Assembly: GCF_000317145.1 (NCBI RefSeq)
Contig: NC_019697.1
Span: forward strand, 2,886,385-2,950,384
Length of the DNA stretch: 64,000 bases
Source of the DNA: Chamaesiphon minutus PCC 6605
Lineage (GTDB): Bacteria; Cyanobacteriota; Cyanobacteriia; Cyanobacteriales; Chamaesiphonaceae
Direction of reading: 5' to 3'
Below are positions 45,768 through 52,877 of the stretch, one piece after another; position 1 is the first letter of the stretch, and every line of letters starts with the position of its first letter. The notes under the pieces were generated by a model. That model had not been told where the DNA came from and ran no database searches. It saw only the letters and a list, made by a program, of their open reading frames with translations. The position numbers were made by a program, and so were the translations under genes.

Positions 45768-46593
45768 ACCTGTGACGATCGTGACGATCGGGAAAATCGT
45801 TCCTGTTAATTGTTGTGGTCGCGAGCATGATGACTGTAAACTGATTTTAGCTTAAGGAGACAGCAGATAGCGAACGGATATATTTAATGTTTACCCAATA
45901 ACAAGTTCATCTAGCAGATTATTTCAAGCAGCTATAAATCTCACCAATTATTTAGGACTACTATCTAACGCGATCTCGATGGAGGAAAGTATTCAGAATA
46001 AAGGCTCAGCCATAAAATATTGTTTTAAATTAGATCCGATCGTTAACGAACGGCGGCAAATCTGATCCTTTGCTTCGACTCTAGATAATGTAGACATTTT
46101 TAAGTAATAAGATTTTCCATGAATATATAGCAATCAAGGTGATAAATTATCTGCACCTCACTAATTAATGAATAGCTATACTAAAGAGCAGATTGAAAGT
46201 ATTGTTTTGCAAATGAAAATCATTAAAAGACCGCGTTATTGCTGACCAATTTAAAAACAATGTATCAGTTTTTCATTGCAAAAGTTACATACAGCTTTCA
46301 TGAGTGATTGTCAATAGTCCTCTTGATAGATGTCAGAGACTTGTAATGATTTTAAGATATTAAAATGTCGGTACAACTTAATGCAACTCATAGAAAGGAT
46401 CGAACTCATTTTGCAGATACTTTGTGTCGCAACCCAACAGGCTGAATTTATGACAGTTAAGCAAATTATCTGCACGAGCAACTCCGGACACAAACAAAAA
46501 CCTGTGGGTATTTTTGGGCTGTAATGTTGCTAATTATCAGGTGATGTATCTTAAGTATAGATAATTGACAATTATAAATAATTGAGGAATTCT
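45768..46593. other. Long A/T-rich intergenic region before the MAA operon
   Basis: About 825 bp. No gene supported; two short frames (46311-46493, 46330-46524) have no recognisable content. The region must contain the promoter for the HAD-like gene and perhaps the mys operon. Confidence 0.5.
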
Positions 46594-47286
46594 ATGTCAG
46601 CTATTCTCTTTGGCTCTATTAGTACGATTGCCGACACCTCCGAACTACAAAGACAGGCTTTCAATCAAGCTTTTCAGGCTCATGGACTCGACTGGAATTG
46701 GAGTCGAGCAGAATATCTGAAAATGCTAGAAAAAAGTGGCGGTCAAAATAGAATTGCCGATTATGCAGATTCGATCGGACAGACAGTCGATATCAAGGCA
46801 ATTCATCGATCGAAGTCCGAATTTTTTCAAAATAGCTTAACCAACTCTCAGGTCAAACCTCGTTTCGGCGTAGTCGAAACAATCCAGGGTGCAAAAAATA
46901 AAGGTTTGAAGATTGCTTTTGTCACAACAACTTCTCAGGAAAATATTTCGATGCTGATGGCGGCATTGCAGCCAAGTATCCAGGTTACTGATTTCGATCT
47001 TATTTTAAATGACTCTAGTGTAGCTCGCCCCAAGCCAGATAAAGCTGCCTACACTTTCGCTCTAGAAAAGCTAGGAGAAAGCTCGGCTGATTGCATTGCA
47101 ATTGAAGATAATTTAGGCGGAGTAGAAGCAGCGATCTCAGCAGGTATATATTGCGTTGCCTTCCCTAATATAAATACCGCTCATCATGACTTTAAAAGAG
47201 CAGATCGTGTGGTCGATCGATTGAATTTTGAAGAGTTAGAAAATTTCTTGCCTATAATTAAACAGAGAGAACATAGAGTCATATAG
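46594..47286 (+). CDS. HAD-like (CbbY type) protein without catalytic aspartates
   Basis: A 230-residue HAD-fold protein. Its nucleophile loop reads SAILFGSISTIADT, where active enzymes have hhhhDxDGT. Both aspartates are missing. The later loops remain: FVTTTSQ (motif II), RPKPDKAAYTFAL (motif III lysine) and AIEDNLGGVEAAI (motif IV). Similar GSIST proteins are remembered from cyanobacteria. GAGG lies a few bases before the ATG, which decides the start. The TauD gene follows 7 bp downstream, so it is probably in the MAA operon. Phosphatase activity is unlikely. Confidence 0.8.
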   Translation: MSAILFGSISTIADTSELQRQAFNQAFQAHGLDWNWSRAEYLKMLEKSGGQNRIADYADSIGQTVDIKAIHRSKSEFFQNSLTNSQVKPRFGVVETIQGAKNKGLKIAFVTTTSQENISMLMAALQPSIQVTDFDLILNDSSVARPKPDKAAYTFALEKLGESSADCIAIEDNLGGVEAAISAGIYCVAFPNINTAHHDFKRADRVVDRLNFEELENFLPIIKQREHRVI

Positions 47287-47292
47287 TCAAGA

Positions 47293-48087
47293 ATGATGAG
47301 TAGAGAAACCATTAATTTTCGTCCACTATCACCATTTGGAATTGAAGTAAGTGAGATTAGTATCAATGATATAAATCGTAAATCTCTAGTTTCTTTAAAA
47401 CATGTCATTGCCAATAATGGCTTAGTCATTTTTAGAAAGCAAGCAGTCAGTGATGCAGACTTTGTAGCTTTCCTGAGTCGATTGGGGCCGATGACTTTTA
47501 CAGTGGGAGAGATACCAGTCTCACATCGACCCGAGCTGAATGTGGTTAGCAATATCGGACGAGAGCGGCCACCTAGGAGCGTTTTTCATACAGATACTAG
47601 CTATATTGCCAGACCGCCAGCCTTCACGGCATTGCGCGCTCTAACTATCCCTGTATCGGGTGGAGGTACACTATTTTCGGATCAGTACCGTGCCTATGAG
47701 ACATTGCCCACAACAGTCAAAGAGCAGCTTGCCGATGCGCGGGTGCTCCATGTCATGTCTGGACTATCCCTAGATGAGCACCAAGAAAACCAAAGTTGGC
47801 ATCCCTTATTTCTGCGGCATCCTCTTTCCGGTCGATTGGCCTTATTTTTATCGACACCAGAACGTTGTCAGGCCATCTCTGGCATGACGATCGATCGAGC
47901 GCAACGGATCGTGCGGTTGCTTTATCAGCACTCTATTCGCCACTACAGACTTTACCGTCACAGATGGCAACCAGGCGATATCGCGCTCTGGGATAACCGT
48001 TGCACGATGCATCGTGCCGACCACTCACAGGTTATTGGAGATCGATTATTGCATCGGGGACTGGTGTTGGACGAACCAATTGTTTAG
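47293..48087 (+). CDS. TauD/TfdA-type 2-oxoglutarate dioxygenase
   Basis: A 264-residue non-heme iron enzyme. The iron triad is FHTDTSY (H-x-D) near residue 99 and a distal His in CTMHRADHSQV. The 2-oxoglutarate Arg is likely in RLLHRGLVLDEP. It is of the TauD family and differs from the PhyH-type MysH used in palythine formation. Position directly before mysA suggests a tailoring step on a mycosporine, such as hydroxylation or demethylation. Spacing to mysA is 131 bp. Confidence 0.85.
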   Translation: MMSRETINFRPLSPFGIEVSEISINDINRKSLVSLKHVIANNGLVIFRKQAVSDADFVAFLSRLGPMTFTVGEIPVSHRPELNVVSNIGRERPPRSVFHTDTSYIARPPAFTALRALTIPVSGGGTLFSDQYRAYETLPTTVKEQLADARVLHVMSGLSLDEHQENQSWHPLFLRHPLSGRLALFLSTPERCQAISGMTIDRAQRIVRLLYQHSIRHYRLYRHRWQPGDIALWDNRCTMHRADHSQVIGDRLLHRGLVLDEPIV

Positions 48088-48218
48088 ACGCGCATATCCT
48101 GGCTAGCGTGAATTCAGCGAGAACATCCGCTCGTTCGACTTGATAATTATTAGAAAGATTGTTAAGTTTTACAAAGAGCTATATAAGTGGCACCTATCAG
48201 CAACATTAGGAAAATATA

Positions 48219-49460
48219 ATGACTAACGTTCAGGCAACTTTCAAGGCTACAGAAACAGCTTTTCATGTTGAGGGATACGAAAAAATTGATTTCAGTTTGC
48301 TTTATGTCGATGGCGCATTTGCAGTTGAGAACGCAGAGATTGCCGAGAGCTACCGTCAATTCGGTCGCTGTCTGATGGTCGTAGATGAAGCAGTGTATGG
48401 TTTGTATGCCGAGCAGATCCAAGCTTATTTCCAGCATTATCAAATCGACCTGACGGTCTTTCCCGTTGCAATTAAGGAGACAGATAAAACGTTACAATCT
48501 GTCGAGAAAATTGTCGATGCATTTGCAGATTTTGGATTGGTGAGAAAAGAACCCGTTTTAGTTGTTGGTGGTGGCTTAACCACAGATGTAGCGGGCTTTG
48601 CTTGTGCGACTTATCGCCGTCGCACCAACTATATCCGAGTGCCGACAACGCTGATTGGTCTGATCGATGCCAGCGTGGCAATCAAAGTAGCCGTCAACCA
48701 CGGTAAGTTAAAGAACCGACTGGGTGCTTATCATGCGTCGCAGAAGGTGATTCTAGACTTCTCATTTCTCAAGACGTTACCTGTAGATCAGGTGCGTAAC
48801 GGCATGGCAGAGCTGATTAAAATCGCCGTGGTCGCGAACAACGGCATCTTTGAGATGCTAGAAAAATACGGTGAAGACCTGTTGCATACCCATTTCGGCT
48901 ACTTGAATGGCACGCCTGAGTTACGCGAGGTCGCGCACAAGGTGACATATGATGCCATTAATACCATGCTCGGTCTAGAAGTACCCAACTTACACGAACT
49001 AGATCTCGATCGAGTGATTGCTTACGGTCATACTTGGAGTCCAACCTTGGAGCTAACGCCAGCAATTCCAATGTTCCACGGTCATGGCGTAAATATCGAT
49101 ATGGCATTCTCGGCGACTATTGCCCAGGAGCGGGGTTATATTTCGGTCGGCGAGCGCAATCGGATTTTAGGATTGATGAGCCGGATTGGTTTGGCGATCG
49201 ATAGCTCTTATCTGACGCCCGAATTGTTGTGGAAAGCCACAGAATCGATCGGCAGGACGCGGGATGGCTTGCTACGTGCAGCCGTTCCTCACCCGATCGG
49301 AAGCTGTTCTTTCCTCAACGATCTGACCAGGGCTGAGTTAGACGAGCACCTAGCGATTCACAAAGAGATCTGTCGTGAATATCCTCGCGGTGGCGATGGC
49401 GAAGATATGTTTATGTCATTAGCATCGGTTGCACCTGCTTCAGTAGGGGTAGAAGCATGA
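48219..49460 (+). CDS. mysA: Desmethyl-4-deoxygadusol synthase
   Basis: A 413-residue sugar phosphate cyclase of the dehydroquinate-synthase superfamily. It converts sedoheptulose-7-phosphate to desmethyl-4-deoxygadusol, the first step of MAA biosynthesis. It has [20 protein letters not shown] (NAD loop), [28 protein letters not shown] with Glu/Lys ligands, [12 protein letters not shown] and the His-rich [15 protein letters not shown]. This closely follows the DDGS of Anabaena variabilis as I remember it. The next gene overlaps by 4 bp (ATGA). Confidence 0.95.
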
Positions 49461-50281
49461 CAATCTCTGCGGTAAAATCGCCCCGACCCGTGACGCCGCT
49501 GGGCATTCTGGCGACCAAGCTAGAGTCTCTCAGTCAGCAGCTAGCAGCTCTAGATATTGATGCCAAATTGAAGTTGGAATTGCAGCAAGCTTGTGAGTTA
49601 GCAAGTGGGTTAGATCCATATATCAGCCACTGCACGACCCCTGAGTCTCCAGCACTAGCAGCATTGGTACGTCGTACCCAATCAGAAGACTGGAGCCAGC
49701 GGTTTGCCGAGCGACAAACCGGGCATCAGCTAGAGCAGGAAATGCTCTCAGGGCATGTCGAAGGTCAATTTCTCAAATTCTTGGTGTATGTTACCCAAGC
49801 GCGGCGAGTCTTAGAAATCGGTATGTTTACAGGCTACTCTGCCCTAGCGATGGCAGAAGCTCTGCCCGATGATGGCGAAGTGGTTGCCTGTGAGGTCGAT
49901 GCTTATGTAGCGAAGTTTGCTCAGGACTGCTTTGACGAGTCTCCCAGTGGGCAGAAGATCTCGATCGAAGTGGCACCAGCAATGGTGACGCTTCAGCAGT
50001 TAGCCACTGCAAATGAGAAGTTCGATCTGGTCTTTATCGATGCCGATAAGGCGGGCTATGTAAACTATGTGAATTTCTTGCTAGACAATAACTTGCTGAC
50101 ACCGCATGGTTTTATCTGTGTTGATAATACGCTGATGCAGGGGCAACCCTACTTAGTCGGTGAGTCTACAGCCAACGGGGTGGCGATCGCCACGTTTAAC
50201 CAGACAATCGCGGACGATCCGAGGATCGATCGGGTGTTGTTGCCGCTACGAGATGGTCTGACGTTGATTCGTCGAGTCTAA
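49457..50281 (+). CDS. mysB: 4-Deoxygadusol O-methyltransferase
   Basis: A 274-residue SAM-dependent catechol-type methyltransferase. The SAM-binding loop is [20 protein letters not shown], with [28 protein letters not shown] and [13 protein letters not shown]. It methylates desmethyl-4-deoxygadusol to 4-deoxygadusol. The ATGA overlap with mysA indicates translational coupling. A G-rich hairpin lies in the 183-bp gap before mysC. Confidence 0.94.
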
Positions 50282-50300
50282 AACCCATTTGAGATCTGCT

Positions 50301-50352
50301 AGTGGGGAGGGTGGTCATTAAGCTTGTCGAAGTGACGACCACTCTCCCCCAC
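50301..50352 (+). promoter_or_regulatory. Hairpin between mysB and mysC
   Basis: GTGGGGAGGGTGGTC and GACCACTCTCCCCCAC pair, with one bulge and one wobble, around a loop of about 20 bases. It is followed by AAATAT, not a long T run. It may reduce readthrough or stabilise the upstream message. Confidence 0.55.
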
Positions 50353-50464
50353 AAATATCTGTCCATGCACTGCTACCGCGATCGACAGATCGCAGTAGCG
50401 GTCTGACCGGGCTAAAATTTGCCTTGAGATAGTCCGGATTATTTTCCCAAATTAAGATGCCACC

Positions 50465-51811
50465 ATGGGTTCAGAACAGGTAGATCGCAGACAGCTACAG
50501 ACGGTCATAATAACGAGCGTCAAAACAGTGGCAACTCTGATGCTGCTGCTGTTGGTGTTACCTTTAAACCTGACTTTAACCGCGATCGCATTACTCAGAT
50601 CGGCCATAATTAAACCGCCCAGAACGATCGCCGCAGACCCAAAAACGATCCTGATTAGTGGCGGCAAAATGACCAAAGCATTGCAGCTAGCTCGATCGTT
50701 CGATCGAGCGGGTCATCGAGTCATCCTGATCGAATCGCATAAATACTGGCTGACGGGGCATCGATTCTCTTGGGCAGTCGATCGCTTTTATACAGTACCC
50801 AAGCCTCAAGCCAAGGACTATCTCGATGCACTGCTAGAGATCGTCGAAAAGGAAGGCGTAGATGTCTACATCCCCGTCTGTAGTCCAGTTGCCAGTTATT
50901 ACGATGCGCTAGCCAAACAGGTACTCTCCAAGCATTGCGAAGTGATGCATTTCGAGCCAGACATGGTGCAAAAACTGGATGATAAATCTGAATTTTCGGC
51001 GATCGCCACATCGCTAGGTCTAGCCGTACCCGATTCCTATTGCATCACCGACCCCCAACAGATCCTAGACTTCGATTTTGCTAAACAAGCAAACAAATAC
51101 ATTGTCAAAAGCATTCCCTACGACTCGGTGCGGCGGTTGAATCTAACACAATTGCCCTGCGAAACACCGCTAGCAACAGCAGCATTTGTGGCAGAATTGC
51201 CGATTTCCGAGCATAACCCGTGGATTATGCAAGCATTTATAACTGGTCAAGAATATTGCACCCACAGCACCGTGCGGAATGGGGAGTTGCAACTACATTG
51301 TTGCTGCGAGTCATCAGCCTTCCAGATCAATTATGAAATGGTGGATAAGCCAGAGATCGAAGCATGGGTGAGAAAGTTTGTTAAAGGTCTAAATCTTACA
51401 GGGCAAGTTTCCTTTGATTTCATTCAGACACAGAACGGGAATGTGTATGCGATCGAGTGCAACCCGCGCACTCATTCAGCGATTACGATGTTTTACAACC
51501 ATCCCGATGTCGCTAAGGCTTATCTAGAAAGCGATTTTCCCCTCATTCAACCTCTCGAATCCAGTCGTCCGACTTACTGGATTTACCATGAAATTTGGCG
51601 ATTGGTGACGCAACCGATGCAGATCGGGCAGCGGTTGAAAACTATTGCGAGCGGTAAAGATGCCATTTTTGATTGGGCAGATCCACTGCCATTTTTGATG
51701 GTGCATCACGCCCAGATTCCTTCGCTGTTGCTCGAAAATTTGCAGCAGCTTAAGGGCTGGATGCGGATTGATTTTAATATTGGTAAACTCGTCGAGCCAT
51801 CAGGAGATTAA
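50465..51811 (+). CDS. mysC: ATP-grasp ligase, mycosporine-glycine forming
   Basis: A 448-residue ATP-grasp enzyme joining glycine to 4-deoxygadusol to give mycosporine-glycine. After a hydrophobic N-terminal segment (about 15-45), the sequence KTILISGGKMTKALQLARSF and ILIESHKYWLTGHRFSWAVD follows. The ATP-grasp core has KQANKYIVKSIPYDS, QAFITGQEYCTH and YAIECNPRTHSAITMF with the metal-binding Glu/Asn. An ATG at 50465 opens the frame. The next gene begins 8 bp after the stop. Confidence 0.94.
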   Translation: MGSEQVDRRQLQTVIITSVKTVATLMLLLLVLPLNLTLTAIALLRSAIIKPPRTIAADPKTILISGGKMTKALQLARSFDRAGHRVILIESHKYWLTGHRFSWAVDRFYTVPKPQAKDYLDALLEIVEKEGVDVYIPVCSPVASYYDALAKQVLSKHCEVMHFEPDMVQKLDDKSEFSAIATSLGLAVPDSYCITDPQQILDFDFAKQANKYIVKSIPYDSVRRLNLTQLPCETPLATAAFVAELPISEHNPWIMQAFITGQEYCTHSTVRNGELQLHCCCESSAFQINYEMVDKPEIEAWVRKFVKGLNLTGQVSFDFIQTQNGNVYAIECNPRTHSAITMFYNHPDVAKAYLESDFPLIQPLESSRPTYWIYHEIWRLVTQPMQIGQRLKTIASGKDAIFDWADPLPFLMVHHAQIPSLLLENLQQLKGWMRIDFNIGKLVEPSGD

Positions 51812-51818
51812 TTTATTT

Positions 51819-52877
51819 ATGGGACTGCGCGTTTTACACTTGGTCGGGTCTGCGGTTAGTGAGTTTTACGGCGATTTATCCCGCTTGTATGCTCAAGATT
51901 GTCTGGAGTCTACCGCAAATGTCCAGCTTTATGAATTCCACATTGCTTATATTACGCCCGATCGTCAATGGCGGTTCCCAGCCGATCTAAGTCGTGAAGC
52001 GATCGCATTAGCCAGCCCCATGTCTGTTGCCGAAGCAGTTCGAGTTTTAACCACACTCCAAATTGATGTAATGGTGCCCCAGATGTTCTGCATCCCTGGC
52101 ATGACCTACTACCGCGCTCTATTCGATCTGCTCGATATTCCCTACCTGGGCAATACTCCTGATTTGATGGCACTAACTGCTAATAAAGCCAAAGCTAGAT
52201 CGATCGTCGCCGCAGCAGGTGTTAGTGTGCCGCCAGGGGAACTACTTCGCATCGGAAATCGGGCCGAGCCTGTCAGAATCAAAATCGACCCGCCAGCCGC
52301 GATCAAACCTGTGGATGCAGACAATTCTCTAGGGGTAACTTTGGTCAGAAATCGCGCTGAATACGATTCTGCTCTCAAGACAGCTTTTAACTATGCCGAT
52401 GAAGTGCTAGTCGAGACATTTATCGAACTGGGTCGAGAAGTTCGTTGTGGTATCATCGATCGAGATGGGGAGCTTGTCTGTTTGCCTTTAGAAGAGTACG
52501 GGATGGACAAAGAGCATCAGCCCATTCGCCGCTACGAAGATAAGCTCGGTCAAAACAAAAATGGTGACTTATATATGGTTGCTAAGGATATCACTAGATC
52601 GTGGATCGTCGATCCTGACGACCCGATTACAGCCAGGGTTTGGGATGCTGCTAAAAAATGCCATATCGCTCTGGGTTGCCGCCATTACAGTCTGTTTGAT
52701 TTCCGCATCGATCCCAGCGGGCAACCTTGGTTTTTAGAAGCAGGACTGTACTGCTCTTTTGCCAGCAAAAGTGTAATTTCGATGATGGCAACAGCAGCGG
52801 ATATTTCTCTAGAAAAGCTGTTCCAAATCTCTGTTAATAAGGCGTTGCTCGATTGTCATTCTGACAGGCTCCGCTAA
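51819..52877 (+). CDS. mysD: D-Ala-D-Ala ligase-like MAA enzyme
   Basis: A 352-residue ATP-grasp ligase (MGLRVLHLVGSAVSEFYGDL) that adds a second amino acid to mycosporine-glycine to make an imino-MAA such as shinorine. It has the D-Ala-D-Ala-ligase hallmarks PYLGNTPDLMALTANKAKAR, AIKPVDADNSLGVTLV, VLVETFIELGREVRCGII and WFLEAGLYCS. The start is chosen after the mysC stop. The open frame reaches further upstream, but that would overlap mysC. It acts in place of the NRPS MysE found in Anabaena. Confidence 0.93.
   Translation: MGLRVLHLVGSAVSEFYGDLSRLYAQDCLESTANVQLYEFHIAYITPDRQWRFPADLSREAIALASPMSVAEAVRVLTTLQIDVMVPQMFCIPGMTYYRALFDLLDIPYLGNTPDLMALTANKAKARSIVAAAGVSVPPGELLRIGNRAEPVRIKIDPPAAIKPVDADNSLGVTLVRNRAEYDSALKTAFNYADEVLVETFIELGREVRCGIIDRDGELVCLPLEEYGMDKEHQPIRRYEDKLGQNKNGDLYMVAKDITRSWIVDPDDPITARVWDAAKKCHIALGCRHYSLFDFRIDPSGQPWFLEAGLYCSFASKSVISMMATAADISLEKLFQISVNKALLDCHSDRLR

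Follow-up and report, generated by a model that had tools for sequence, protein, structure and literature searches.

A TauD-type oxygenase and a nucleophile-less HAD protein accompany mycosporine-like amino acid genes in cyanobacteria and actinobacteria

The window analyzed here is a stretch of 64,000 nucleotides from the stream cyanobacterium Chamaesiphon minutus PCC 6605 (NC_019697.1, positions 2,886,385 to 2,950,384), located on a 6.28-Mb contig of a 6.76-Mb genome in three contigs. It contains the genes mysA, mysB, mysC and mysD for the synthesis of mycosporine-like amino acids (MAAs), and directly upstream of them two further genes, one for a HAD-fold protein and one for an Fe(II)/2-oxoglutarate oxygenase of the TauD family. 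Both of these genes are real, are under purifying selection, and are found, in two phyla, together with MAA genes and with one another. On balance, we lean toward the view that they constitute a two-gene module for MAA tailoring, in which the TauD enzyme would remove glycine and the HAD protein, a catalytically dead relative of CbbY, would serve as its partner. The six genes had been reported in an initial annotation of the sequence, and their open reading frames (ORFs), strand and positions are confirmed:

46594..47286, + strand: predicted HAD-fold pseudophosphatase of the CbbY lineage, 230 aa (Pfam HAD_2, 3e-22; motif I nucleophile and acid/base Asp lost)
47293..48087, + strand: TauD/TfdA-type Fe(II)/2-oxoglutarate oxygenase, 264 aa (Pfam TauD, 6e-48; H99-x-D101...H240, R251)
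48219..49460, + strand: mysA (Pfam DHQ_synthase)
49457..50281, + strand: mysB, O-methyltransferase (Pfam Methyltransf_3)
50465..51811, + strand: mysC, ATP-grasp ligase for glycine addition (Pfam ATP-grasp)
51819..52877, + strand: mysD, D-Ala-D-Ala-ligase-like, for addition of the second amino acid (Pfam D-Ala-D-Ala-ligase type; ATG start)

The HAD ORF starts with ATG behind a GAGGA ribosome site; 6 bp separate its stop codon from TauD, and 131 bp separate TauD from mysA. The dehydroquinate synthase-like mysA, the O-methyltransferase mysB, the ATP-grasp mysC and the ligase mysD follow in the order of an MAA biosynthetic cluster and each match mys genes of other genomes (51-96% identity). Judged by their profile matches, the family assignments of all six genes are unambiguous. 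The mys genes had been described as joined by overlaps or short gaps, of which the gene order and the mysA/mysB overlap (4 bp) stand; the mysC-mysD gap measures 7 bp, but a 183-bp gap with a hairpin between mysB and mysC makes this picture slightly too tidy. Among named relatives, Chamaesiphon polymorphus CCALA 037 is the nearest, with identities of 87% for TauD, 80% for HAD and 96% for mysA.

The link to MAA synthesis is most evident from the distribution of the two genes. In a single scan of about 85,000 genomes, supplemented with family relatives, the window TauD belongs to a tight clade of at least 52% identity, after which identity drops to 38%. Cyanobacteria contribute 12 genomes to this clade (Chamaesiphon and relatives, Drouetiella, Oscillatoriales RM2_1_1, PMM_0036, two Calothrix and Alkalinema), and actinobacterial members are found at 45-52% identity. 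All 12 cyanobacteria possess mys genes: mysC was found in ten, and in the other two mysA lies beside TauD on broken contigs. The initial annotation had proposed to look for TauD homologs beside mysA in other cyanobacteria, and the HAD-TauD pair indeed sits at the mys cluster in five of the 12 genomes, the window included. It lies in line upstream, in the order HAD-TauD-mysABCD, in the window, C. polymorphus and Alkalinema (the last two on contigs that end within the cluster), and divergently from mys in Drouetiella and PMM_0036; in G008, a related metagenome-assembled genome, mysABCD-HAD stands at a contig end. In Mycobacteriales, the HAD and TauD profiles match an identical set of 11 genomes out of 150 (Fisher 7e-17; our Fisher p-values are descriptive, as they ignore shared ancestry and as the cyanobacterial positives were gathered by similarity to the query). 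Both genes are found at the mys cluster in every one of these 11 genomes, most commonly in the order HAD-mysA-mysB-TauD-mysC-mysD, and as HAD-mysABCD-TauD in M. yunnanensis and one other. The window proteins share 45-52% (TauD) and 49-59% (HAD) identity with these copies at or inside mys operons. Since both orthologs adjoin or sit inside mys clusters in several different orders, the linkage observed in the window is not due to chance. By this genomic association, which bears out their earlier description as part of an MAA operon region, we assign HAD and TauD to the MAA pathway.

TauD homologs are commonly catabolic enzymes, and in most other TauD-positive cyanobacteria, including Calothrix, RM2_1_1, G006 and G009, the pair is found among unrelated genes. 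It could thus be regarded as a neighboring unit for sulfonate or carboxylate catabolism without a role in MAA synthesis, and homologs next to unrelated genes had indeed been named beforehand as an observation that would speak against such a role. Literally, this observation is made in several cyanobacteria; yet these genomes carry mysABC(D) elsewhere, so that the unlinked copies do not refute an MAA function. We consider a catabolic unit highly improbable, given that every genome with the TauD clade also has mys genes, that most actinobacteria have TauD within the mys operon, and that the tree sets the clade clearly apart from other TauDs. An ordinary taurine/sulfonate TauD was likewise rejected as a candidate: 20 weaker cyanobacterial TauD regions (E below 1e-30) lie elsewhere in other contexts, none of them with mys genes. 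Searches of plasmids returned distant TauDs; one Nostoc plasmid bears mysABC and a ligase gene, with neither HAD nor clade TauD annotated. In the TauD tree, the cyanobacterial clade (97/98) stands beside the actinobacterial one, and G009 joins the window sequence (100/99). In the mysA tree, by contrast, G009 falls outside the pair of the window and C. polymorphus and clusters with other cyanobacteria, G010 and G008 among them (100/100). Core and tailoring genes therefore have partly different histories, yet co-occur.

The HAD protein had been labeled a pseudoenzyme, and its motif I agrees with this label: it reads FGSIST in the window, as compared to FDVDGT in active CbbY, with the nucleophilic Asp replaced by Gly (G7) and the acid/base Asp by Ile (I9). 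All 21 class I HAD sequences, from two phyla, have [F/L]GSI[S/G] in place of FDVDG and hence lack the DxD motif of HAD phosphatases, whereas the window genome's housekeeping CbbY has FDVDGT. The remainder of the family hallmarks is retained, namely motif II (T-T/G-T), the motif III Lys, the acidic pair of motif IV and the C1 cap; T111, T113, K147 and E171 are invariant in the 21 sequences, D172 is found in 20 of them, and the cap residues GG..R and K74 are kept. The AlphaFold model of the window protein (pLDDT 91) has its best match in the Protein Data Bank (PDB) in apo-CbbY (4uar, TM 0.83). The HAD thus resembles the xylulose-1,5-bisphosphate phosphatase CbbY of Rhodobacter sphaeroides (4uar/4uat) in fold, cap, motifs II-IV and sequence (37-38% identity), but with both catalytic Asp residues of motif I replaced, phosphate hydrolysis is not expected. 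In comparison with C. polymorphus, nonsynonymous (dN) and synonymous (dS) divergence amount to 0.126 and 0.539 for HAD and to 0.072 and 0.305 for TauD. As the resulting dN/dS of about 0.23 for HAD equals that of TauD (0.24), the gene is under selection and not decaying. By its motifs and conservation, we classify the protein as a conserved pseudoenzyme.

Nucleophile-less HADs occur in all 12 TauD-positive cyanobacteria, as a class I ortholog in nine and as a member of a sister class, class II (FGAIGTIAETS), in G005, G006 and G007; in G006, the class II gene adjoins TauD. Neither class was found in any of 41 mysC-positive cyanobacteria lacking the clade TauD, a set composed of 40 genomes from a sample of 386 cyanobacteria plus G010, which is of the same family and has a complete mysABCD. 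With the exception of that in G023, CbbY-level HAD matches read FDVDGT or FDMDGT. It is this co-occurrence that suggests a role of the HAD as partner of TauD. Alternatively, the HAD might serve the front of the pathway, i.e. the supply of sedoheptulose-7-phosphate or MysA. Its descent from the sugar-bisphosphate phosphatase lineage of CbbY with retained cap residues (GG..R and H/K), its position directly before mysA in actinobacteria, and the diverged nucleophile-less HAD of G023, a mys-positive genome without clade TauD, are compatible with such a role. The absence of both classes from the 41 genomes, G010 among them, speaks against it, and in genomes with unlinked copies the HAD mostly lies beside TauD rather than mysA; we therefore hold a function at the pathway front to be unlikely.

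Class II HADs (FGAIGTIAETSDLQRQAFN) are present in Chamaesiphon genomes at loci L190:6475-7227, L191, L192, L193 and L114:8613-9380. The class II paralog of the window genome (L190; C1:2532474-2533226) has a motif I disrupted by an insertion, which would fit redundancy. The HAD of G023 (L351:8352-9053, LVGSIGTFVETSELQRE) is 31% identical, lacks the catalytic Asp and lies beside a glgC-like gene, away from the mys genes. Nucleophile-less relatives of CbbY therefore exist outside the HAD-TauD module, which weakens the notion, in its strict form, that such proteins occur only together with TauD.

The oxygenase is a bona fide member of the TauD/TfdA family, with H99, D101, H240 and R251 invariant in 23 of 23 sequences. 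By analogy to Escherichia coli TauD, we take these residues to be the iron triad and the 2-oxoglutarate-binding Arg; the spacing to R251 and R255 likewise matches what we assume to be the 2-oxoglutarate-binding and substrate-anion Arg residues of that enzyme. Its AlphaFold model (pLDDT 91.8) is most similar to RdpA, AAD-1, PlaO1 and TauD in the PDB, at 25-29% identity.

Two other Fe(II)/2-oxoglutarate oxygenases have been connected with mys clusters. MysH of Nostoc linckia NIES-25 makes palythines (PMC10510106; PMC11378024, citing a 2021 study). It belongs to the PhyH family (PF05721), while the window protein matches Pfam TauD, as the initial annotation had correctly recognized, and the two are not orthologous. 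MysH-type PhyH genes were found beside mys genes in Nostocaceae-like genomes (L284, L286), in total in four of 386 Cyanobacteriota, none with clade TauD; with the clade TauD in one of these 386, both are too rare for a test of mutual exclusion to have power. A search for a MysH ortholog in the TauD-positive genomes yielded none, the best PhyH matches being unlinked and below 31% identity, and we thus rejected MysH as the enzyme acting in these genomes. MysI, a TauD/TfdA dioxygenase from the mysFIE cluster of Nostoc sp. UHCC 0926, was proposed in 2023 to trigger glycine loss and form palythine (PMC10510106). It has in common with the window protein the Pfam TauD family, the MAA cluster context and the proposed glycine loss, but comprises 387 aa and lies beside mysF and mysE, the latter encoding a nonribosomal peptide synthetase (NRPS), whereas the window TauD has 264 aa and neither neighbor. 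In BLASTP, the window TauD and a MysI-type protein (L326) gave no significant match (E 0.05 over 17 residues), and the view that the window protein is MysI was rejected once this mysF-mysI-mysE cluster had been located. As it is orthologous to neither MysH nor MysI, the window TauD represents, in terms of homology, a third lineage of MAA dioxygenases. The cluster at L326:2165-9157 (G193 C7, a 1.04-Mb contig) has a truncated mysC upstream and matches the published plasmid cluster of Nostoc sp. UHCC 0926. A further locus, L323:2785-13497 (G323), has contiguous mysABC, an EamA-like transporter, a MysI-type TauD and an NRPS, with a methyltransferase gene beyond. A published Brasilonema layout, with a dioxygenase called mysH, may be of this type and its gene a mysI.

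MAA clusters with HAD and TauD/TfdA genes were described in 2025 in a GATOR-GC study, which reports them from Actinomycetota, Pseudomonadata and Bacillota and states their absence from Cyanobacteriota (PMC11888242). They share with our loci the two Pfam families and the pathway, and the Mycobacteriales loci L257-L266 and M. yunnanensis, like the window, hold both orthologs at mys. The restriction stated there does not hold, as 12 cyanobacterial genomes carry the module, in new gene orders and with unlinked copies; and passages of that study regard the HAD as an enzyme, whereas none of the class I members examined here retains motif I. Measured against a partial survey of the literature, it is new that the cluster type has a cyanobacterial branch, with its gene orders and its unlinked copies, that the HAD family as a whole has lost motif I, that HAD and TauD co-occur independently of mysABC, and that TauD is separate from MysH and MysI.

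What would such a module do? In yeast, MysD from either C. minutus PCC 6605 or C. polymorphus yields mainly porphyra-334 (PMC11983340). Porphyra-334 is also present in Chamaesiphon from the field (PMC5928177), and the GATOR-GC study cites unpublished work in which the HAD+TauD MAA operon of Rhodococcus fascians led to shinorine, palythine and palythine-serine in Streptomyces (PMC11888242). These data lead us to predict glycine removal by TauD with palythine-threonine as the product. MysA-MysD would make porphyra-334, and TauD, with Fe(II), O2 and 2-oxoglutarate, would hydroxylate the α-carbon of the glycine attached by MysC. The resulting carbinolamine would break down to glyoxylate and a palythine-type product, i.e. 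palythine-threonine, or palythine-serine if MysD used serine. With less confidence, we suppose that the HAD, which keeps its fold and pocket but would form no aspartyl-phosphate, binds or regulates TauD as its partner and does not act as a phosphatase. In the simplest and, in our view, most likely reading, TauD would thus be an independently recruited enzyme that removes glycine just as MysH does. Consequently, the initial proposal that a TauD-type enzyme implies a different tailoring chemistry is unsupported, the more so as the TauD-type MysI has been proposed to form palythine (PMC10510106) and a HAD+TauD operon is cited as palythine-yielding (PMC11888242).

Several points weigh against this reading. 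The palythine result is second-hand and comes without a reported deletion of TauD or HAD (PMC11888242); members of one clade do not count as independent genomes, and query similarity was the basis on which the cyanobacterial TauDs were gathered; G023 has a distant nucleophile-less HAD in a mysC-positive genome without clade TauD; and, mildly, only porphyra-334 was seen in alpine Chamaesiphon morphospecies, although the species were different ones and porphyra-334 served as the standard (PMC5928177). TauD could also oxidize the MAA core or side chain in another way, for instance by hydroxylation, O-demethylation or dehydrogenation to a usujirene/palythene-type compound, and the product would be a new MAA instead of palythine. 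Its lack of orthology to MysH and MysI would be in line with this, as would its nearest solved relatives, aryloxyalkanoate and PlaO1-type oxygenases that at about 25-29% identity leave the substrate unfixed. Against this stand the palythine and palythine-serine ascribed to the actinobacterial operon (PMC11888242) and the glycine-installing MysC, which accompanies TauD also in genomes with unlinked copies, and we judge another oxidation to be improbable.

Going beyond glycine removal with a HAD partner, we tentatively raise the possibility of a two-component system, in which the nucleophile-less HAD is an obligate partner of TauD (a scaffold, gate or allosteric subunit) and which would provide a third independent palythine route, in cyanobacteria and actinobacteria. 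If true, MAA synthesis would have recruited, besides MysH and MysI, a third independent dioxygenase lineage, which would be useful for palythine production. A cluster type published as absent from cyanobacteria now extends to 12 of their genomes, and the missing tailoring step is directly testable, as MysD of both C. minutus and C. polymorphus has already been characterized in yeast. The tightly co-inherited dead HAD poses the question why an iron oxygenase would need a pseudophosphatase.

Three further features concern the expression of these genes:

46354..46593, + strand: conserved leader ahead of HAD-TauD (90.4% identity with C. polymorphus), putative promoter region
48142..48170, + strand: conserved element GATAATTATTAGAAAGATTGTTAAGTTTT upstream of mysA, common to Drouetiella and PMM_0036; putative promoter
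50304..50349, + strand: inverted repeat in the mysB-mysC gap with 13-nt arms and a 20-nt spacer, predicted to form a stable hairpin

Whether all six genes share one transcript had been left open, and rightly so. For this question, only elements conserved across genomes proved informative, since scans for promoters (17 vs 12.8) and terminators (7 vs 6.1) gave numbers in the range of chance; a sigma-70 consensus scan at 48142..48170 gave no match on the + strand. In the 131-bp gap, GATAATTATTAGAAAGATTGTTAAGTT from position 48142 is common, with few changes, to Drouetiella and PMM_0036, where HAD-TauD is divergent from mysA and thus unable to read into it. As the element is kept there, the gap probably holds a separate promoter for mysA, and read-through into mysA may occur as well. 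The 240 bp preceding HAD are 90.4% identical between the two Chamaesiphon species, more than the adjoining HAD coding sequence (82.5%) and the preceding 250 bp (71%), which suggests a separate, regulated start for HAD-TauD. An upstream regulatory RNA was rejected: the region before HAD has no match in Rfam and folds in no unusual way (z 0.0), nor does the TauD-mysA gap (z -1.3). The hairpin between mysB and mysC has a minimum free energy of -31.6 kcal/mol over 99 nt (z -2.1); the searched pattern occurs once in the window, and the hairpin may be a small mobile repeat or else act as an attenuator.

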